From Nitrosomonas sp. (GTDB lineage Bacteria > Pseudomonadota > Gammaproteobacteria > Burkholderiales > Nitrosomonadaceae), in the NCBI GenBank assembly GCA_030682075.1, contig JAUXRH010000163.1:1-37373 (forward strand): DNA of 37,373 bases, written 5' to 3'. Under the pieces are notes generated by a model that saw nothing but the letters and a program-made list of their open reading frames with translations, did no database searches and was not told the origin of the DNA. The number at the start of each line of letters is the position of its first letter. Positions within the stretch are counted from its first letter, which is position 1. Positions 14,303 through 24,562 of this stretch are shown piece by piece. The translations under genes were made by a program, and so were the position numbers.

Positions 14303-14863
14303 TTAATTTGCAATAACTTGTATATCTGGTTCAATTGCTTTTAACAACTGCTCTATACCCCTGAGCGTCCCTGTTATGGCACTTGGACAGGTGCCACAAG
14401 CCCCCTGATAATGTATTCTGAGAACATTATCTTCGAGCCCCAATACATAAAGATCACCGCCATCGTTTTGCAGAAATGGTCGCACTTCCTCGTCAAGTAG
14501 AACATTGATCTTTTCAAGACGCTGTTGATCTTCTTGACTTAAGTTAGCCAATGTTTCATTTGCCTCTGCAACAACTTTCTTCGATTGTGCTGAAGCTGCG
14601 GGCGCTGCGCGGATTGGGTCAGCAATTTCTCGTGCTAAATCCTGCCAATTCGCTTCACCATCTTGCGTGACCGTAATCCAGTTATCAATATAAAATACAT
14701 TGGTTACATGATCAATATCAAACAGCGCTGATGCCAGTGGATCATCTATTGCTTCATCAGCTGTATCATATGAGTATGTTATCCCCCAAGTTAGCGGTTC
14801 TTTGAGAATAAACTTCAGTGCATTCTTATTTGGTGTACCTTCAATATCAGCTATTTTAGGCAT
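14303..14863 (-). CDS. Nfu-type Fe-S carrier protein
   Basis: A 186-residue protein with an Nfu N-terminal domain (residues 1-85), an Ala/Ser-rich linker and a NifU C-terminal domain (115-186). The cluster-binding pair is Cys156 and Cys159 in GACGTCPSA. Such proteins hold a [4Fe-4S] cluster at a dimer interface and deliver it to apo-enzymes. A longer frame opens at 14917, but the ATG at 14863 has a GGAGA ribosome site 5 bases upstream and matches family N-termini (MPKIADIEGTPN). It lies 140 bases downstream of sufU on the same strand, so it is either the last gene of the SUF operon or separately transcribed. It is not the E. coli NfuA layout, whose N-terminal domain is A-type. Confidence 0.88.
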   Translation of the reverse strand: MPKIADIEGTPNKNALKFILKEPLTWGITYSYDTADEAIDDPLASALFDIDHVTNVFYIDNWITVTQDGEANWQDLAREIADPIRAAPAASAQSKKVVAEANETLANLSQEDQQRLEKINVLLDEEVRPFLQNDGGDLYVLGLEDNVLRIHYQGACGTCPSAITGTLRGIEQLLKAIEPDIQVIAN

Positions 14864-15003
14864 TAAATCTCCATAACAATAATAGCTCAATAAATTATGC
14901 TTGATTGAATAAGTCAATAAGAAAAATTATTGAGAAGACGCAATTTAATTAATAATTAAACAACCAACCTAAAGAGAATTTATTAATTTATAGATTAAAC
15001 AAA

Positions 15004-15486
15004 CTAAGCTTTTCCAGCTGTAGCATGTACTGGATCATTTCTAGCTTCAGTTGAGGTGGTTGTGACTGAATTGAGCGCGGCATGTAGCGTATGCCATGGG
15101 AGAATGGCACATTTAACGCGAGTCGGTAAATCCCGTATACCAGAAAACACCGTCAGACGACCAAGATGATGGGGGCTTTCAAGATCAAGTTTGCCTATTG
15201 CCATTTCACGAAATTCTTGTATTAATGTTTCGACATCTGTAAGTGGTTTACCCTTAACAGCGGTAGTCATCATTGAAGCAGATGCTTTGCAAATTGCACA
15301 GGACTCACCCTGAAATGCAATATCGTCAATATGATCATTTTCAAGATTAAGCGCGACATCCAGTCGGTCACCACATAATGGATTGTGTCCAACTGCATGG
15401 TGGCTGGCTTCATTAAGCGTACCGTAATTTCTTGGTTTTCTATTGTGATCAAGAATGACTTCCTGATAAAGCGATTTTGTATTCAT
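15004..15486 (-). CDS. sufU: SufU-type Fe-S scaffold / sulfur acceptor
   Basis: A 160-residue SufU protein. Cys38 and Asp40 (NPLCGD), Cys63 and Cys66 (GESCAICKAS) and Cys126 (VKCAILPWHTL) give the Cys-Asp-Cys-Cys set of SufU/IscU. In characterised SufU, these residues bind Zn and accept sulfur from SufS. A 12-residue insertion before the last Cys and the absence of the IscU chaperone motif LPPVK mark it as SufU. The start codon overlaps the sufS stop (TAATG), so translation is coupled. It replaces SufE here. The tail after residue 138 is a Thr/Ser-rich extension with no known role. Confidence 0.9.
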   Translation of the reverse strand: MNTKSLYQEVILDHNRKPRNYGTLNEASHHAVGHNPLCGDRLDVALNLENDHIDDIAFQGESCAICKASASMMTTAVKGKPLTDVETLIQEFREMAIGKLDLESPHHLGRLTVFSGIRDLPTRVKCAILPWHTLHAALNSVTTTSTEARNDPVHATAGKA

Positions 15487-16745
15487 TATAAAAATACCTT
15501 CTGTACCTTACGGATACCCGCAATCAAGGCATCAACTTCTAATTTATTATTGTAAAACGCAAATGAAGCACGGGAGGTTGCAGGTATGTTAAAACGCTGC
15601 ATCACTGGCTGTGCGCAATGATGTCCAGTGCGAACGGCAATTCCCTCCTGATTTAGTAGTGTTCCAATATCATGCGGATGAATTCCATCAACCACAAATG
15701 ACAGGACGGCAGTTTTATTGATTGCGTTACCGACGATATGCACACCCGGTATATCATTTATTAGTTCAGTTGCGTAGTTAAGTAGATCAAGCTCGTAGAG
15801 ATGAATCTTATCCATGCCAATCGTTGATAAATAATCAATTGCAGCACCAAACCCGATTGCAGCAGCTATCGGAGGTGTGCCCGCTTCAAATTTGTGCGGA
15901 ATGACATTGTAGGTAGTTTTTTCAAATGTTACAGATGCGATCATATCGCCACCACCTTTGAAAGGTTGCATGGCTTCAAGTTGCGCCGCTTTTCCATACA
16001 ACATGCCAACGCCAGTTGGACCGCACAGTTTATGCGCTGAAAAAGCATAAAAATCACAATCAAGGTCCTGAACATCAACTTTTATATGTGGCGCAGCTTG
16101 TGCGCCATCAATTAATACTGGCACATGATGCAAATGCGCAAATGCGATCATCTGTTTTATCGGATTAATAGTACCCAATGCATTTGAAACATGGATTAAG
16201 CCAACAAATTTAGTACGTTTGTTAAATAGTTTTTCATACGCGTCAATTAAAAGCTCACCCTTATCATTGATAGGTACAATGCGAATTTTTGCTCCGGTTT
16301 CTTCTGCCAACATTTGCCAGGGTACAATATTCGAATGATGCTCAAGTGTAGTTAAAATGATTTCATCACCAGCTTTGATAAATTTTCGGCCATATCCATG
16401 CATGACCAGATTAATCGAATCCGTTGTGCCGCTGGTAAAAATTACTTCTCTATCTTCTCGAGCATTGATAAATTTCTGTAATTTATGACGTGCGCCCTCA
16501 TATTCTGAAGTCGCTATTTCTGAGAGGTAATACACCGCACGATTGATATTCGCATGTTGTGCGGTTTGATAATGGACTAACCGATCAATGACGACTTGTG
16601 GCATCTGACTGGAAGCTGCACTATCAAGATAGATTAATGGCTTGTCATTAATTTTAAGTTTTAGAATTGGAAAATCAGCGCGAAATTTTTCCATGCTATT
16701 GGTTTGTATCTTTCTGGGTTGTATTGAGGTATCGATAATTTTCAT
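15486..16745 (-). CDS. sufS: Cysteine desulfurase SufS
   Basis: A 419-residue PLP enzyme of group II that converts cysteine to alanine and a protein persulfide for Fe-S assembly. PLP Lys239 is in FSAHKLCGP, the catalytic Cys377 is in RTGHHCAQP, and the cofactor-stacking His is in LEHHSN (135-140). The frame is open to 16844, inside sufD. The ATG at 16745, 4 bases past the sufD stop, is preferred for coupling, and an inner ATG at 16694 (MEKFRADFP) would give the 402-residue form closest to E. coli SufS (406). It overlaps sufU by one base. All catalytic residues are present. Confidence 0.93.
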   Translation of the reverse strand: MKIIDTSIQPRKIQTNSMEKFRADFPILKLKINDKPLIYLDSAASSQMPQVVIDRLVHYQTAQHANINRAVYYLSEIATSEYEGARHKLQKFINAREDREVIFTSGTTDSINLVMHGYGRKFIKAGDEIILTTLEHHSNIVPWQMLAEETGAKIRIVPINDKGELLIDAYEKLFNKRTKFVGLIHVSNALGTINPIKQMIAFAHLHHVPVLIDGAQAAPHIKVDVQDLDCDFYAFSAHKLCGPTGVGMLYGKAAQLEAMQPFKGGGDMIASVTFEKTTYNVIPHKFEAGTPPIAAAIGFGAAIDYLSTIGMDKIHLYELDLLNYATELINDIPGVHIVGNAINKTAVLSFVVDGIHPHDIGTLLNQEGIAVRTGHHCAQPVMQRFNIPATSRASFAFYNNKLEVDALIAGIRKVQKVFL

Positions 16746-16749
16746 GGAT

Positions 16750-18054
16750 TTAATTGCGCTGGGTCTGCTTAAGAACTGTCTGCTCAAGCTGATGCCTAAG
16801 TGATATGACGGGTATTCGCTCCAATATTTCCGCACCAAAAGCATAGGTCAACAAGTTTCTCGCCGTGATTTCTGATAAACCACGACTTCTCAAATAAAAA
16901 ATTTCTTCGTTATCCAGTTGGCCAACTGTGGCGCCATGCGCGCATTTAACGTCATCAGCAAAGATTTCAAGCTGTGGTTTAGTATCAACTTGAGCTTTGC
17001 CGCTCAAAAGTAGATTACGACTTGATTGCGTGGAATTGGTGCACTGTGCTTTAGGGCGAACCATAATCTTTCCATTAAATACAGCATGCGCCGTATCATC
17101 GACAATGCATTTATGGAGCTGCTGACTGCAACCATTTGGTTTTATATGATCAATAAACGTATGGGTATCAGCAAGTTGCTGCCCTTTTATCAGTGCGAGG
17201 CCGTTAATTGAACATTCAGCACCTTCATCTGCCAACTTAACATTTAAGTCGTAGCGTGAAATACGTGCGCCAAGTGCAACACTAGTGGATTTATACTGAC
17301 TGCCTTGTGCAAGGGATGCGGTACAATCGGCAATATGAAATGCCTGATCACTTTCTCGTTGAATCCGAATATGATTAACTTGTGCATTGTCAGCAATACT
17401 TATTTCAGTTACTGAATTGGTAACATAAGTTACTTCCTGCAAGGCAACATAATCTTCAATAACGGTGACATTACTGCTAGATTCAGCAATTATTAAACAG
17501 CGTGAATAACTGGTGACTTCTTTTTGCGTGGAAATAAATAATAAATGTATGGGAGCTGTAACTGATTTATTGTGGGGAACAAGAATTAATGCACCATCAT
17601 GAAGATACGATGTATTCAATGCAGCAAATACATTATTTTTAAAATCAGTATATTGACCGAGATGCGTTGCTATTTCAGATGAATGGCAAGAGATTAGCGC
17701 TGACAAATTACCAACGATAATATCGTTATCATGGGTGATACAGGATAATTGTGGGGAATATTGACCATCAACAAACACCATTCTAATTTTTGCTTCCCCA
17801 AGAAAAAAATGATCAATATCTTTAATCTTAAGCTGTGATGGTTCTTTTGCTACTTGAAACGGTAGTTTAATAAGCGGTGAAATGTCGGTAAATCGCCATT
17901 CTTCATCGCGTGTTGTTGGCATTTTTAATGCGTTGACACAATCAACAGCTTCAGACCTCAGCTGATCCAGCCATGGCAGAGTGCTAGTAGAAGGTTCAGA
18001 CCACGTTTTGAGCATGTTCGCGAGGTAGTCATCATTACAGACAGCTTCGTTCAT
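16750..18054 (-). CDS. sufD: SUF scaffold subunit SufD
   Basis: A 434-residue beta-helix protein. The N-terminal segment [15 protein letters not shown] (46-60) is the SufBD N-terminal signature, and the C-terminal block [22 protein letters not shown] contains the conserved Cys-His pair. SufD pairs with SufB and two SufC ATPases to form the SufBC2D scaffold on which clusters are built. Its start overlaps the sufC stop by four bases (ATGA). The length is close to that of E. coli SufD (423). Confidence 0.93.
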
Positions 18055-18845
18055 GATACGACACCTTCAGCGGTACGATTTTCCGCACTTACCCATTCAT
18101 AACCACGCGTTTCAAGTGCTAATGCAAGTTCTTTTCCACCGGTCTTTATAATGCGGCCTGATTCCATAACGTGTACATAGTCAGGCACAATATAGTCCAG
18201 TAGGCGTTGGTAATGTGTTACCAGTATGATTGCATTCTCTTTGTTTGCTATTTGATTTACACCATTTGCGACTATTCTCAATGCGTCAATGTCTAAACCG
18301 GAGTCAGTCTCATCAAGAATACTAATTCGTGGCTCAAGCAATGCCATTTGAAGAATTTCATTGCGTTTTTTTTCACCACCCGAAAAGCCTTCGTTAACAC
18401 TGCGATCAAGAAATTCCGGGTTCATTTCCAGCAATTTCATTTTGTCACGTACAAAATCATCAAATTCAAGAGGGTCAAGTTCCTCCTTGCCACGTTGAGC
18501 TTGTACCGTATTATATGCAAGGCGCAGAAATTGGTTGTTTGCCACGCCTGGTATTTCAATTGGATACTGAAACGCGAGAAAAATACCTGCGCGTGCACGT
18601 TCTTCTGGCTCAAGCTCAAAAAGATCCTTGCCTTCGAACATGACGGATCCCGCAGTAACTATATATGCAGAATGACCAGCCAGCACCTTGGTTAAGGTGC
18701 TTTTGCCTGATCCATTAACTCCCATAATGGCATGGATTTCACCACTTTTAATGGTGAGGTTGATCCCTTTTAATACTTCAATATTATTAACTGTCGCATG
18801 TAAATCTCGTATTTCGAGCAATGTCTTGCTGTCTTTATCTATCAT
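18051..18845 (-). CDS. sufC: SUF ATPase SufC
   Basis: A 264-residue ABC-type ATPase of the SufBC2D complex. The Walker A motif GVNGSGKST is at 42-50, the signature SGGEKKR at 155-161, the Walker B region [12 protein letters not shown] at 175-186, and the switch His in LVTHY near 211. ATP hydrolysis drives rearrangement of SufBD. The start overlaps the sufB stop (ATGA) and the stop overlaps the sufD start (ATGA), so the three are translationally coupled. Confidence 0.96.
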
Positions 18846-20278
18846 CCGACACTTCCTTCAAGCTTGAAACTAAGCAGCTTAGTTGCTTCGACGGCGAATT
18901 CCATCGGTAATTGCTGAAATACATCTTTACAGAATCCATTAATTATCATTGATACAGCTTCTTCAGCACCAATACCACGCTGTGCGAAATAAAACAGCTG
19001 GTCTTCACCGATTTTTGAAGTAGATGCTTCATGTTCAACTTTCGCGCTATTATTTCGTACTTGAATATAGGGAAAAGTATGTGCGCCACATTGGTCTCCA
19101 ATCAACATGGAATCGCATTGCGAGTAATTCCGTGCGCCATCTGCAGTAGGCGTAACTCTAACCAGGCCACGATAGCTGCTGTTTGAATGGCCCGCAGCAA
19201 TACCTTTACTGACAATAGTGCTCCGTGTATTTTTCCCAATATGAATCATTTTGGTTCCAGTATCCGCCTGTTGATAATTATTGGTAACAGCAACGGAATA
19301 AAACTCACCAACTGAATTATCTCCACGCAAGATACAGGAGGGATATTTCCATGTAATAGCAGAGCCGGTTTCTACCTGGGTCCAAGAAATACGTGAGTTA
19401 ATACCTTTGGCTAAACCACGCTTAGTAACAAAATTATAAATACCCCCAATACCATTTTCGTCACCCGCATACCAGTTCTGTACGGTTGAATATTTGATAT
19501 CCGCATTATCCAGAGCAACCAGTTCAACCACGGCCGCATGAAGCTGATTGGTATCAAATCTGGGGGCAGTGCAACCTTCAAGGTATGAGACTGATGCACC
19601 ATCCTCAGCAATAATAAGTGTACGTTCAAACTGACCTGAAGACTCAGTATTAATGCGGAAATAGGTCGATAAATCCATTGGGCATTTGACGCCTTTTGGA
19701 ATGAAGCAAAATGAACCGTCAGTAAATACAGCTGAATTTAATGCGGCATAATAGTTATCACCAACCGGCACGACCGTACCAAGGTATTTCTTTATCAGAT
19801 CGGGATATTTTTGAACGGCTTCAGAAATTGAACAGAAAATAATTCCAACTTCAGCAAGCCTTTCTTTATAGGTAGTAGCAACCGAGACGCTATCAAAGAT
19901 TACATCAACGGCAACACCCGCAAGTGCGGCGCGTTCATGCAAGGGGATACCCAGTTTTTCAAAAGTTCGCAGTAATTCAGGATCAACCTCATCCATACTG
20001 GCAAATTTCTTCTTTGATTTTGGCGCAGAATAATAACTGATCGACTGAAAATCAATTTTTGGATATTTAACATTCTGCCAATGCGGCTCAGTCATGCTAA
20101 GCCACTTCTTATATGCTTCAAGCCTAAAAGTCAGCAACCACTCAGGCTCCTTTTTTTTGGCTGAGATCATACGAATAACGGCTTCATTCAGTCCTTTAGG
20201 TGCGACTTCAGATTCTATTTCAGTGACGAAACCATGTTTATATGGTTGGTTAACCAGATTTTGCAATACTGCACTCAT
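18842..20278 (-). CDS. sufB: SUF scaffold subunit SufB
   Basis: A 478-residue SufB, the core scaffold of the SUF complex. It has the family segments [31 protein letters not shown] and [18 protein letters not shown], and the near-invariant C-terminal end [21 protein letters not shown] is present. The Cys in QCDSMLIG and the neighbouring Cys are cluster-assembly residues in characterised SufB. The length is similar to E. coli SufB (495). It lies 111 bases downstream of the A-type carrier gene and overlaps sufC by four bases. Confidence 0.97.
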
Positions 20279-20389: not shown

Positions 20390-20731
20390 TTAGGTTTTAA
20401 CCTGTTCTTTAAAACTAAAACTCTCACCACAGCCACAAGCATTATCAATATTTGGGTTGTTAAATTTGAATGTGCTATTGAGACCATCCTTGACAAAGTC
20501 AACTTGTGAGCCATCAAGAAAAGGTAAATTATTTACATTAACAACGATACCAACATTAAGTGAATCAAAAAATTTCTCATCTGCGCGCACTTCATCTGCG
20601 TAATCGAATGTGTAAGCAAAACCGGAACACCCGGATTTTTTAATACCAACACGCAAAGCCAAGCCTTTGCCACGTTTTGCAAGCTGTTGTTTGACGTGAT
20701 TTGCTGCGTACTCAGTCAATGTAATTGCCAT
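20390..20731 (-). CDS. A-type Fe-S carrier (SufA/IscA/ErpA family)
   Basis: A 113-residue A-type carrier. The three conserved cluster ligands are Cys35 (KSGCSGFAY) and Cys99/Cys101 (NACGCGESF). These proteins receive a nascent cluster and pass it to targets. An upstream TTG at 20743 keeps the frame open, but the ATG at 20731 (MAITLTEYAA) fits family N-termini. It lies 151 bases after iscR and 111 before sufB, consistent with the iscR-sufA-sufB order of a SUF operon. Whether to call it SufA or IscA cannot be decided by motif alone. Confidence 0.9.
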   Translation of the reverse strand: MAITLTEYAANHVKQQLAKRGKGLALRVGIKKSGCSGFAYTFDYADEVRADEKFFDSLNVGIVVNVNNLPFLDGSQVDFVKDGLNSTFKFNNPNIDNACGCGESFSFKEQVKT

Positions 20732-20882
20732 AATGTGTCTCAATTATTATCTATAAGTATGATTAATTAATATTACTGGAAGTTCAAATTCAGTATCAGT
20801 ATTTATAGTTTTCAGGATGATTGATTTTAATCTATATTTAAATCGTTATTAAAGATAGGGAGATAGTCAGTTTCAAGAGAGA

Positions 20883-21368
20883 TTAGGCGGTTGTCGATTC
20901 ACGCATATCAAATAATTTTACAACAACAGCATCTTGTTGCTGTATCAGTTGCTGCTGCTGTATCAGTTGCTGGTTGTCTACAAGTTGTTTAAGCGTAACC
21001 GCACCCAAATACTCAAAAATAAGTTCATTCAGTTTGGCCCATAGATCATGCGTCATACATTTGCTATCATTATGGCAATTCTCCTTTCCGCCGCATTGTG
21101 TTGCGTCTATTGGTTCATCAACGGCAAGAATAATATCTGCGACTGATACTTCTTCTAAAGCTTTGGCAAGACAATAACCACCACCTGGACCGCGCACACT
21201 GCCTACTAGTTTCGATTGACGTAATTTGGCAAATAATTGTTCCAGATAAGACAGAGATATTTTCTGACGATGACTAATATCTGCAAGTGTTACCGGACTG
21301 TTGTTATTCTGCAAAGCAAGATCTAATAGCGCGGTTACTGCAAATCTTCCTTTTGTTGTTAATCGCAT
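20883..21368 (-). CDS. iscR: Fe-S cluster regulator IscR (Rrf2 family)
   Basis: A 161-residue Rrf2 repressor. It has the winged helix-turn-helix (MRLTTKGRFAVTALLDLAL; recognition helix LSYLEQLFAKLR) and the cluster ligands Cys92, Cys98 and Cys104 in CGGKENCHNDSKC, at the same numbers as in E. coli IscR. Cluster-bound IscR represses its own promoter through type 1 sites and so measures Fe-S supply. Three such sites lie upstream (21430-21510). The C-terminus carries an unusual Gln-rich tail made of an 18-base repeat (QQLIQQQQLIQQQ). It heads the SUF operon on the minus strand. Confidence 0.95.
   Translation of the reverse strand: MRLTTKGRFAVTALLDLALQNNNSPVTLADISHRQKISLSYLEQLFAKLRQSKLVGSVRGPGGGYCLAKALEEVSVADIILAVDEPIDATQCGGKENCHNDSKCMTHDLWAKLNELIFEYLGAVTLKQLVDNQQLIQQQQLIQQQDAVVVKLFDMRESTTA
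20941..20976 (-). repeat. 18-base tandem repeat in the iscR tail
   Basis: Two 18-base units (containing TGTATCAGTTGCTG on the + strand, starting at 20941 and 20959) encode LIQQQQ twice in the C-terminal part of IscR. It lies after the DNA-binding and cluster domains, so it may vary without loss of function. Confidence 0.8.
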
Positions 21369-21429
21369 TTTACAAATTCCTTTAAAAAATGGGACGTTGT
21401 TTACTAAAGAGTGACATCTACGGTAAAAA

Positions 21430-21510
21430 ATACCCGATGTATTTAGTCAACTATACAATACCCGATGTATTTAGTCAACTATACAATACCCGATTGTTTT
21501 GATCGACTGT
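21430..21510 (-). promoter_or_regulatory. Three tandem IscR type 1-like operators
   Basis: A 28-base unit occurs three times head to tail (from 21431, 21459 and 21487), the first two identical and the third diverged. On the minus strand, each unit contains a 25-base site of the form ATASYYGACT-RWWWY-AGTCRRSTAT, the E. coli IscR type 1 consensus. Sites 21430-21454 and 21458-21482 match at 22 of 25 positions (ATAGTTGACT...CATCGGGTAT) and 21486-21510 at 21 of 25. They lie 62-142 bases upstream of the iscR start, as expected for autoregulation. Confidence 0.8.
21450..21478 (-). promoter_or_regulatory. iscR/suf promoter
   Basis: On the minus strand TTGACT (21473-21478) and TATAGT (21450-21455) are separated by exactly 17 bases, a good sigma70 promoter. 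The -35 lies inside the second IscR-like box and the -10 inside the first, so bound IscR would block polymerase. The predicted start is near 21443, leaving a leader of about 75 bases. Confidence 0.7.
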
Positions 21511-21693
21511 AGTCAGATTGAACATTAAAGGGTCCGCTCTATTTTTAATCAATTGAAATGTCAGTAAATATTTCAGGAAGGAAACTGGTAAAACGGAGAA
21601 ATACCAAGAAATCTAAAAATATAACGCTATTTATTGCGCTTCAGTCATTGGAGACATCTGTATTTTATTTTGATCAGGATACTAATGAATTCA

Positions 21694-21873
21694 GGGCGCC
21701 TCTAAAAATCCAATTTTGCGAGCAGCCGCTTTGCGGCTTGCCTGCTTACTCCGTTTCGTCGCAATACAGCGTTGCTCATAAAAAATTTTCTCTTACATAT
21801 CAACCATATGCTACGCTAAAATTTTTTTCTCGCGCCTTGTCTTGCCTGGAAACTTGAATTTTTAGAGATGCCC
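21694..21873 (+). repeat. MITE-like element, copy 3 (180 bp)
   Basis: A complete 180-base copy with ends GGGCGCCTCTAAAAATCC and (inward from the right) GGGCATCTCTAAAAATTC. It shares the GCCGC-TTT-GCGGC hairpin with the other copies but is the most diverged internally. It lies between the iscR promoter and the terminator of the copper operon. The stretch 21515-21693 holds no gene that I recognise. Confidence 0.85.
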
Positions 21874-21891
21874 TCCAAACGAATTACCTAA

Positions 21892-21935
21892 AAAGGCTTG
21901 GCAGAGAAATTATAACAAATTCCCGCCAAGCCTTT
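21892..21935 (-). terminator. Rho-independent terminator of the copper oxidase operon
   Basis: A perfect 11-base inverted repeat (AAAGGCTTGGC at 21892-21902, GCCAAGCCTTT at 21925-21935) with a 22-base loop starts 4 bases after the cupredoxin stop. On the minus strand the stem is followed by TTTTT. The long loop is unusual, but the perfect stem and the position support a terminator. Confidence 0.75.
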
Positions 21936-21939
21936 AAAA

Positions 21940-22848
21940 TCATTGGTTATTATTGTTGCTTTTTCTGATGGGCTTTAATTTTCTGATCAATGGCACGCTC
22001 AAAACACCAAAGAGCAGCCCAAAAATTAACATTCCTGAGTTTAGTGAGTTAGAATCAAAAAGATCTGCTACTTGCTTCATAATTGAATCTTCGTCAGTTT
22101 TATCTGAAACTTGTGGCAGGTCCACATGCTTATAGATATCGGTAAATGCGTAAGGCGTTAATCCCGGGATGCTGGGCAGATTTTCTCCACCTTTACCAAC
22201 AACTAATTGTGCTTTCATGCCGTTTTCCATATGCTGGGCAATATCGCAGTGGACAAGATAGGTTTCATCAGCGCCGGGCATAATAATCGTGCCAGAGATT
22301 GTTTTAGGTCCGGTGACTTCGAGATGAAACATGCCATACTTATATAAGTATCTTGGCAGTCCATGCATCATGAACTGATGGCGCACATGATCTTCATTAA
22401 TAAAATGCCAGGTTACTTTTGCACAGGGTTTAACGCGCCATTCCTGATTATCAAAGGCAAAGGCAGTGCCAGGAAATTTTTCAGCATACTTCCTGCCAGC
22501 ACGAACTGTAATCTCAATTTCTTCTGAAATACTGTCACAGCTGGTGGGTAATTTGTCGAAATTTTGACCCATAATCATGCCACCCTCATGATCCATAATA
22601 TGATCCTCATCCATATGATGATGGCCGTCACCCTGGTGAGAGGTATGGCCTTCTGGTGTTGTATGGCCTTTCGAATGCTCACTGGGGGGGGCATCCATCA
22701 TATGGTCATCCCCATGCACCATGTCATGGCCATCATCGTGTTGCATAGTATGACCACTATGATCTACTGGTTTTATGGGTTCGGTCGCATAGGCATGTGG
22801 GCCAATAACTAAAGAACCTACGAGTAAGATTGAGAAATACTTAATCAT
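21940..22848 (-). CDS. Membrane-anchored His/Met-rich cupredoxin
   Basis: A 302-residue periplasmic protein. Residues 1-21 are a signal peptide, about 27-95 form a His/Met/Asp-rich segment suited to binding copper ions, about 100-220 are a cupredoxin domain, and 272-288 are a C-terminal membrane anchor. Type 1 copper ligands are visible: a His in EDHVRHQF (154-157) and Cys201, His206 and Met211 in HCDIAQHMENGM. The spacing Cys-x4-His-x4-Met equals that in the neighbouring multicopper oxidase. Its start overlaps the oxidase stop by 8 bases, so the two are coupled. It may carry electrons to or from the oxidase or buffer periplasmic copper. Confidence 0.85.
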   Translation of the reverse strand: MIKYFSILLVGSLVIGPHAYATEPIKPVDHSGHTMQHDDGHDMVHGDDHMMDAPPSEHSKGHTTPEGHTSHQGDGHHHMDEDHIMDHEGGMIMGQNFDKLPTSCDSISEEIEITVRAGRKYAEKFPGTAFAFDNQEWRVKPCAKVTWHFINEDHVRHQFMMHGLPRYLYKYGMFHLEVTGPKTISGTIIMPGADETYLVHCDIAQHMENGMKAQLVVGKGGENLPSIPGLTPYAFTDIYKHVDLPQVSDKTDEDSIMKQVADLFDSNSLNSGMLIFGLLFGVLSVPLIRKLKPIRKSNNNNQ

Positions 22849-24562
22849 TTTTTATGCTTCCTTTAGAACCTTTAAGTAGAGAAACCACTCGAAGAACGGC
22901 TTGCTTTGCCAGCTGACGTTTGGCTATTAACAAATAAATTGAGATACCCAGTAGCAGTCCATACAAAAAGTTGAGTAGTGAGGTACGTGTCGCAGGATCA
23001 ATCCCGGCAGTCATCCCTGTTTGCCCAGCAGGTGTCCCTAGAGTCCCTGCCTTATCAAGATCCTGCCATACCGGCACCTTTCTCTGATAAAACTCTTTAG
23101 AGAAATAGGTGTTTAAATCAACACCATGGCTCCCTTTAGGCAGACCGATTTCGGTAAGATATGATTTGTATACAATGGCACTCATACTGCCACCTTCACT
23201 CATGCCATCCGTGGTAATTCCTTTTTCCCTGTGGTCATGAAAAAGCCAGTTACCTTCGCCATAGCTATGTAACCCATCATTGGTGGTATTCAGCGTCAGA
23301 TCGAGACGTTGCGCTGGAGCAAGATCGAAAACATCACGCATGATCTGGGCAATTGGATTATGTTCAACCCCGTCGTAGTGGGTAATCGTAGCATGATGAC
23401 CATGGGTATGCAGCGCCAGCAATTCACCGCCACTATTCAGTACGCGAAGTTTTATTTTCTGGTCGGGTTCAACCGTTATTAAAGATTCTCGTAAAGTATA
23501 AGGGAATGACAAGCCGTTCAGGGTGAAGTAGTCTTCTGTTGAATCGGTGATGTCATATCGCTGATTCATTTCATGTGCAATTAACCTGGGATCATTATAT
23601 TTCTGTATAATTCCAGTAAGTTCTTTGTCCATAGCGTGATAATGCAAGTCGTATTCCTGATCAAAATCTTCTTTAATGGCTACAGACGGATGACGGACTT
23701 GCCCGCCGCCGATATTCAAGGTTTGAAGCCAGTTATTGGGCCGATTCTCTTCGACAATAATTATGCCGCCTAAACCCATGGCCAGGTGCGTATGAGTTTG
23801 CACATGGCAGTGATAAAACATGGTGCCCGCATGACGCGGTTGGAACTCATAGACTCGTCTTTCACCTGGCATCAAGTGCATTTCATTGGTTTGTGGTACG
23901 CCGTCATTACCGCCATATTCATGATGTGAAAAGGGATGATCAACACCATGTAAATGAATACTATGTGGGAAATAATGTGTATTTTCAAGCACTATCTGTA
24001 CAATATCACCGACCTCAACCCGAATCACGGGGGATGGTAACCGCAACAAGGGATTAGCTCTCACGCTTTCAAAATTTTCGGTCGACATGCCGCTTGTTTT
24101 TGGGGCAAATACCCAGGCACCGGGTTGAATACCGGGTGCAATATCAAAAGTAGGCACCAGCCCATCAAAATCACGTGATGATCCATTTAACTCCATGATT
24201 TCAAGCTTGATGGTAATCCGATCAGGATCGCCATCACCATCAAGATCATCCGTTTTTATAATGGCATCTGGCGACAGACCCGTCTGCATCAGTGTCGCCA
24301 TGGAAATATTGTTGGTTCCCTTGACCGCTGCCGCGATCCAGGCAGGATTATCTGGATTACAAAGACGTGATTCCTTAATTTTAACGCCTTCTATTTCCTG
24401 CGCCTCCCGCCAGGAAGCAGCTATTTTTGGATCACAAATGGGCTCAATATTTAACGCTGCCGGGTCAACTTTTACTGTTTCAGGCAGTTTTGCTGTTTGG
24501 GCAATAACCGCTGTAGACATACAGCAGAAGGACAGGATGGCAATCAAAAAATGAATAGGCAT
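22841..24562 (-). CDS. Membrane-anchored multicopper oxidase, T1 copper in the first domain
   Basis: A 573-residue secreted oxidase with a signal peptide (1-22) and a C-terminal membrane segment (about 529-547). Domain 1 has FPHSIHLHG (199-206) and the blue-copper motif HCHVQTHTHLAM with Cys252, His257 and Met262. Domain 2 has LHTHGHH (384-390) and FHDHREKG, where Asp443 replaces the Cys of the usual HCH. So T2/T3 ligands come from both domains but the T1 site is only in domain 1, as in type C two-domain oxidases such as the one crystallised from Nitrosomonas europaea. An acidic DLDGDGDPDRI loop (106-116) resembles a calcium-binding DxDxDG loop. It probably oxidises Cu(I) or a small reductant in the periplasm. 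The operon promoter would lie in 24563-24700, which is AT-rich. Confidence 0.85.
   Translation of the reverse strand: MPIHFLIAILSFCCMSTAVIAQTAKLPETVKVDPAALNIEPICDPKIAASWREAQEIEGVKIKESRLCNPDNPAWIAAAVKGTNNISMATLMQTGLSPDAIIKTDDLDGDGDPDRITIKLEIMELNGSSRDFDGLVPTFDIAPGIQPGAWVFAPKTSGMSTENFESVRANPLLRLPSPVIRVEVGDIVQIVLENTHYFPHSIHLHGVDHPFSHHEYGGNDGVPQTNEMHLMPGERRVYEFQPRHAGTMFYHCHVQTHTHLAMGLGGIIIVEENRPNNWLQTLNIGGGQVRHPSVAIKEDFDQEYDLHYHAMDKELTGIIQKYNDPRLIAHEMNQRYDITDSTEDYFTLNGLSFPYTLRESLITVEPDQKIKLRVLNSGGELLALHTHGHHATITHYDGVEHNPIAQIMRDVFDLAPAQRLDLTLNTTNDGLHSYGEGNWLFHDHREKGITTDGMSEGGSMSAIVYKSYLTEIGLPKGSHGVDLNTYFSKEFYQRKVPVWQDLDKAGTLGTPAGQTGMTAGIDPATRTSLLNFLYGLLLGISIYLLIAKRQLAKQAVLRVVSLLKGSKGSIKND

Follow-up and report, generated by a model that had tools for sequence, protein, structure and literature searches.

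Tandem IscR type 1-like boxes at a 28-bp step overlap the predicted iscR-suf promoter in Nitrosomonas

The iscR-suf locus and its box array

The window, a contig of 37,373 nucleotides from Nitrosomonas sp., carries on its minus strand an iscR gene (20883..21368) encoding a protein of 161 aa, which scores 211.3 bits with the TIGR02010 model (cut-off 207.55), and stays below the cut-off of the IscR model PRK10857 (187.6 versus 275). A profile search of the genome found this protein as its sole Rrf2-family match. Alignment with E. coli IscR places C92, C98, C104, H107 and E43 at the same positions, the three cysteines and the histidine being the cluster ligands. Downstream of iscR and on the same strand follow an iscA/sufA-like A-type carrier gene (20390..20743; above the cut-off of TIGR00049, with the IscA and SufA equivalogs below theirs), sufB (18842..20278), sufC (18051..18845) and sufD (16750..18054), all three recognised by profile matches, sufS (15486..16844; above the cut-off of TIGR01979, with an uncertain startcodon and an ORF overlapping sufD), and, by domain matches, an iscU/sufU-like scaffold gene (NifU_N, 15004..15486) and a gene for an Nfu-like carrier (Nfu_N and NifU, 14303..14917). 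The genes from iscR through the Nfu-like carrier presumably form one operon. No IscS was found above the cut-off in the profile search, with the top one of three matches reaching 297 bits against a cut-off of 643.

A repeat search of the window identified one repeat family upstream of iscR, consisting of three 28-nt copies at 21424–21451, 21452–21479 and 21480–21507 (spacing 28 + 28), with copies 2 and 3 being 93% and 71% identical to copy 1, respectively. The boxes were scored against the 25-bp sequence ATASYYGACTRWWWYAGTCRRSTAT, used here as the E. coli IscR type 1 consensus, which gives 24/25 and 22/25 for the two sites at iscR of E. coli K-12. On the minus strand of the window, three type 1-like boxes lie 28 bp apart and together extend over 21430–21510: box 1 (ACAGTCGATCAAAACAATCGGGTAT, 21486..21510) matches the consensus at 21/25 positions and has a −35-like hexamer TCGATC with 3/6 matches, box 2 (ATAGTTGACTAAATACATCGGGTAT, 21458..21482) matches at 22/25, and box 3 (21430..21454), also 22/25, has the same 25-mer as box 2. 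The top site in the window outside the array scored 19/25, and the maximum in 60 first-order Markov copies of the window was 20/25, reached in 10 of the 60. An earlier note on this DNA had described three 28-base units at the iscR promoter, each with a type 1-like box, which these scores (21, 22 and 22 against a Markov maximum of 20) confirm; it had also called two of the copies identical, which holds for the 25-bp boxes but not for the 28-nt units, which differ at 2/28 positions.

The 2.73-Mb draft genome, in which the window is contig 127, was searched with a type 1-like pattern stricter than the 25-bp consensus, and perfect matches were found only at boxes 2 and 3. With three mismatches allowed, box 1 and eight sites elsewhere matched, as compared to 12 for the reversed-pattern control, and box 1 is thus not above background in its own genome. 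A wider type 1 regulon was considered for this genome and rejected, since nothing beyond boxes 2 and 3, box 1 included, rose above background in this search, with a pattern strict enough that weak or type 2 sites could escape it.

A promoter scan recovered the combination TTGACT-17-TATAGT (21478–21450, minus strand), in which the −35 hexamer TTGACT (21473..21478) lies inside box 2 and the −10 hexamer TATAGT (21450..21455) consists of one linker T and the first five bases of box 3. The placement of the two hexamers in different copies, 17 bp apart, is as the earlier note had described it. The region 21000–22000 contained four promoter-like sites where 3.3 were expected from shuffles, and as this is no excess, the hexamers by themselves prove nothing and the comparative evidence has to carry the case. 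This evidence is the conservation of a σ70 −35/−10 pair at spacer 17, in this phase, in 94 two-box relatives (see below). The transcription start is predicted near 21443, where it would be covered by box 3, and counted from this start the boxes would occupy −67 to −43 (box 1), −39 to −15 (box 2) and −11 to +14 (box 3).

Box number and promoter layout in Nitrosomonadaceae

The assignment of the window to Nitrosomonas agrees with the 200-bp iscR upstreams of loci from its genus, some of which are identical to those of named Nitrosomonas records, as with L008 and L034. An IscR match was present in 121 of 125 Nitrosomonadaceae genomes. Upstream regions were taken from every genome of genus g1 with an IscR match, from the eight genomes of g26, 9/23 of g27 and 3/9 of g28, with further records added and second iscR copies included, giving 145 loci; after removal of one locus that is not iscR (L225) and merging of 26 identical upstreams, 118 distinct upstream regions remained. 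Two boxes at a 28-bp step were found in 94 of these and three at 28/28 in four, while the remainder had one box (18), none (1) or an off-register pair at 41 bp (1), so that 117/118 have at least one type 1 site at iscR. In none of the 94 two-box loci does a site one 28-bp step beyond the pair, on either side, score more than 15/25. The paired motif occurs with zero mismatches in 91/125 family genomes (reversed control 0), and with up to two mismatches in at least 119/125, a figure that includes chance matches, as the control then also matches.

Three boxes occur in the window and in the clade formed by L014, L016 and L038. The predominance of two boxes (94/118) over three (4/118) argues for an old pair and a recent third box, and the two-box form with a 28-bp step is probably both the usual and the ancestral state of Nitrosomonadaceae. 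The earlier note had suggested that duplication of the unit built both promoter and operators; this does not hold, as the two-box 28-bp layout is the family standard (94/118) and only the third copy is a recent event.

Several loci differ in other respects. In the 350 bp upstream of iscR at L026 (G011), the two boxes start at −288 and −260 relative to the gene, compared to approximately −113 and −85 elsewhere, which looks like an insertion of about 175 bp between promoter and gene. A second iscR on a 3.9-kb contig (L216, G095:C25) has no type 1 box of at least 20/25 within 350 bp, and is an extra copy or a contaminant. Two IscR matches were present in 22/23 g27 genomes and 7/9 g28 genomes (for example G118:C11), and in those g27 genomes that have both on one contig, they are approximately 20–50 kb apart.

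Outside the family, rows with an alignment starting after residue 3 were dropped, identical upstreams were merged, and a counted pair required 18/25 or more in both boxes and 20/25 or more in one of them. Among 90 distinct upstreams from the same order, pairs were found at 28 bp (11), 29 bp (7), 27 bp (2), 25 bp (5) and other steps (3), with a −10-like hexamer at spacer 17 in 11/11 pairs at 28 and at spacer 18 in 7/7 pairs at 29. In 63/90 there is no counted pair, which indicates that the paired layout is not general in the wider order. A second set of 50 upstreams, mostly from Gammaproteobacteria, had any box in 42/50 and pairs at 25 bp (15), 29 bp (2) and 28, 32 and 36 bp (one each); the 28 and 29 pairs belong to records labelled Rhodocyclaceae and Betaproteobacteria.

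The step of 28 bp can be related to the left end of the box, (T)ATAGTTGAC, which together with the preceding T reads TATAGTTGAC and contains a −10 (TATAGT) overlapping a −35 (TTGAC). Because the left end holds both elements, a step of 28 bp leaves a spacer of 17 bp between a −35 and the −10 in the box that follows. The arithmetic of step and spacer is trivial, but the restriction of pairs to such steps is not. In the 94 two-box promoters, the −35 is TTGACT or TTGACC in 92 and the −10 is TATAGT or TATACT in 92, and conservation differs between the boxes according to phase: the T that forms the first base of the −10 is present before box 2 in 94/94 loci and before box 1 in 65/94, the box starts with ATA in 92/94 for box 2 versus 71/94 for box 1, and the end of the −35 (C9 with T or C10) is found in 92/94 for box 1 versus 56/94 for box 2. 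Fisher tests of these phase differences gave values from 5e-6 to 2e-11, although the 94 rows are related and are not independent tests, and conservation of the box 2 bases could partly reflect operator rather than promoter constraint. Loci with decayed boxes display the same phase. One Nitrosomonas clade with eight single-box loci has lost box 2 to decay (7–16/25) but keeps TATAGT or TACAGT at spacer 17, and at the second, Nitrosospira-type iscR (ten loci) the first box is degenerate (10–19/25 at the 28-bp position), with TATACT opening the next box in 10/10 and TTGAC[CT] 17 bp before it in nine. Across the family, the letters of the repressor site would thus double as those of the promoter element, which would explain the odd 28-bp step.

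Helix phasing was also considered as the cause of the 28-bp step and was rejected. The earlier note had placed neighbouring boxes on different helix faces, and while 28 bp does correspond to 240 degrees, this is not distinctive, as E. coli and Pseudomonas have a 25-bp step of 137 degrees; the 17-bp promoter spacer is the better explanation.

The core A15C16 is found in boxes 2 and 3 of the window and in 0/217 other boxes, which suggests that one of the two is probably a copy of the other. A recent duplication, as the earlier note had supposed from the identity of the boxes, is the best reading of these sequences, and it is the shared core that supports it, since identical box pairs also occur in five two-box loci and identity alone is no proof of recency. 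The last box starts 86 nt before the ATG in the window versus a median of 85 in the two-box relatives, which would fit an origin of the extra unit within the array. The downstream box may have been duplicated first, providing a new −35/−10 pair 28 bp further on, after which the old −35 of box 1 would have decayed, leaving box 1 as an operator only. The three-box state requires two changes on the iscR tree, in which bootstrap values were still unsettled and the window iscR occupies a long branch, and a single origin of three boxes is a possible alternative. General concerted evolution of the boxes was rejected: of 26 mutual nearest-neighbour pairs, two spoke for it, one against and 23 were ties, unlike a naive permutation for box homogenisation, which gave P=0.0007.

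A proposed autorepression switch and its alternatives

Tandem type 1 sites at iscR are known from other bacteria, and two such sites often accompany Fe-S biogenesis genes (PMC6599224). The iscR promoter of P. aeruginosa has type 1 sites A (−67 to −43) and B (−42 to −18) near the promoter elements, of which B is the primary and A a minor site, and is repressed by [Fe-S]-IscR (PMC6599224). The E. coli K-12 iscRSUA promoter likewise has two type 1 sites, with a −35-like TTGACC inside one of them, and is autorepressed by [2Fe-2S]-IscR, the clusterless form being inactive at type 1 sites (PMC12594620). In both species the −35 lies in the downstream box, the −10 (in E. coli the −10-like CAGACT) lies outside the boxes, and the step is 25 bp, with the sites abutting and the accessory site upstream in P. 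aeruginosa (PMC6599224). The window does not have this layout, as its step is 28 bp, its −10 is completed by box 3, which would also cover the predicted start, and it has three boxes; in addition, the E. coli promoter drives isc rather than suf. The two-box iscR promoters of Nitrosomonadaceae share the gene, the 28-bp step and the split of −35 and −10 between boxes, but have two boxes rather than three. A betaproteobacterial IscR that represses its own promoter through two sites has also been reported from Comamonas testosteroni S44, although its site A is unlike known IscR sites and the portion of the article available describes no 28-bp repeat (PMC4683182). No prior description of a Nitrosomonas iscR promoter or of a 28-bp tandem layout was found among the matches listed from the open-licence literature; a Caulobacter paper aligns a Nitrosomonas IscR, with nothing further on Nitrosomonas in the part available (PMC11475020). 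As tandem IscR operators at iscR are known and two are standard in Nitrosomonadaceae, the third copy is a small and recent variation.

The boxes, their step, their phase-specific conservation and their copy numbers, all obtained by sequence comparison, very probably reflect autorepression by [2Fe-2S]-IscR at an iscR-suf promoter that is built of its own operators. IscR carrying its cluster would bind the tandem type 1 operators and exclude RNA polymerase, with box 2 covering the −35 and the spacer, box 3 the −10 and the start, and box 1 serving as an upstream accessory operator. When clusters are scarce, apo-IscR would release the operators and the SUF operon would be made, and when clusters are sufficient the operon would be switched off, a feedback proposed by analogy with E. 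coli and P. aeruginosa.

Box 1 may be a functionless, decaying remnant, with boxes 2 and 3 working as an ordinary two-box switch; it is the weakest of the three (21/25) with a damaged left half, it is at background under the stricter genome-wide pattern, and just two boxes are found in 94/118 Nitrosomonadaceae upstreams. We nevertheless consider this rather unlikely, as box 1 outscores all 60 Markov controls and, if the start is placed correctly, would share the position −67 to −43 with the P. aeruginosa accessory site A. Conversely, all three boxes could be functional with each neighbouring pair live, which would make the array a pair of promoters that overlap at a distance of 28 bp and answer to one regulator. 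The clade of L014, L016 and L038 has the sequences for this, as both pairs there have a TTGA-type −35 and TATAGT at spacer 17, whereas in the window the −35 of the upstream pair is TCGATC (3/6), so that only the downstream pair looks usable, which makes two live promoters in the window a distinctly less probable arrangement. Binding of the boxes by a regulator other than IscR is very improbable, since the genome has no Rrf2 match other than IscR, and the sites follow the type 1 consensus and are located at iscR in 117/118 distinct family upstreams.

Beyond autorepression at a promoter made of operators, the shared letters allow for a further suggestion, which we offer tentatively and hold to be doubtful. 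As a unit would close one promoter and open the following one, any further copy would supply an operator together with a promoter in register, and the 28-bp unit could thus be a self-extending promoter-operator cassette, which shifts the start in 28-bp steps and can be copied elsewhere. If true, lineages could move the start site in steps of 28 bp and add regulation by one mutation. The natural one-, two- and three-box versions could be used to ask what effect extra operators have on Fe-S homeostasis in ammonia oxidisers.

A promoter copy at rubrerythrin and neighbouring elements

In one relative (G062), a stretch of 153 bp upstream of a rubrerythrin gene is 78% identical to the iscR promoter of the same genome, flank included, and the iscR promoter stretch has just two matches in that genome, at iscR and at rubrerythrin. 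This diverged copy (L225:650–720, on G062:C142) keeps the 28-bp steps, with two boxes and, of a third, the left part, as would suit a unit that acts as a portable cassette. Rubrerythrin would then exemplify how duplication of a promoter can bring a gene into a regulon. In the related genome G063, approximately 158 bp do not align at the corresponding place, compared to 162 bp in G062, which indicates that the copy in G062 is not a clean insertion. None of 11 other genomes had a site of at least 19/25 within 250 bp of the rubrerythrin gene, and rubrerythrin was rejected as a conserved IscR target, as such a site was present in only 1/12 genomes.

Two further features lie upstream of the iscR promoter in the window. 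At 21940–24562, two genes on the minus strand match multicopper oxidase domains, the shorter one weakly. A MITE-like element (21690–21875) with inverted ends CTCTAAAAAT and ATTTTTAGAG is located between the iscR promoter and the next gene, and has at least 42 further matches in its own genome, a lower bound as 40 of 401 candidates were scored; 41 of these are at least 158 bp long with 85–97% identity, and one is short.
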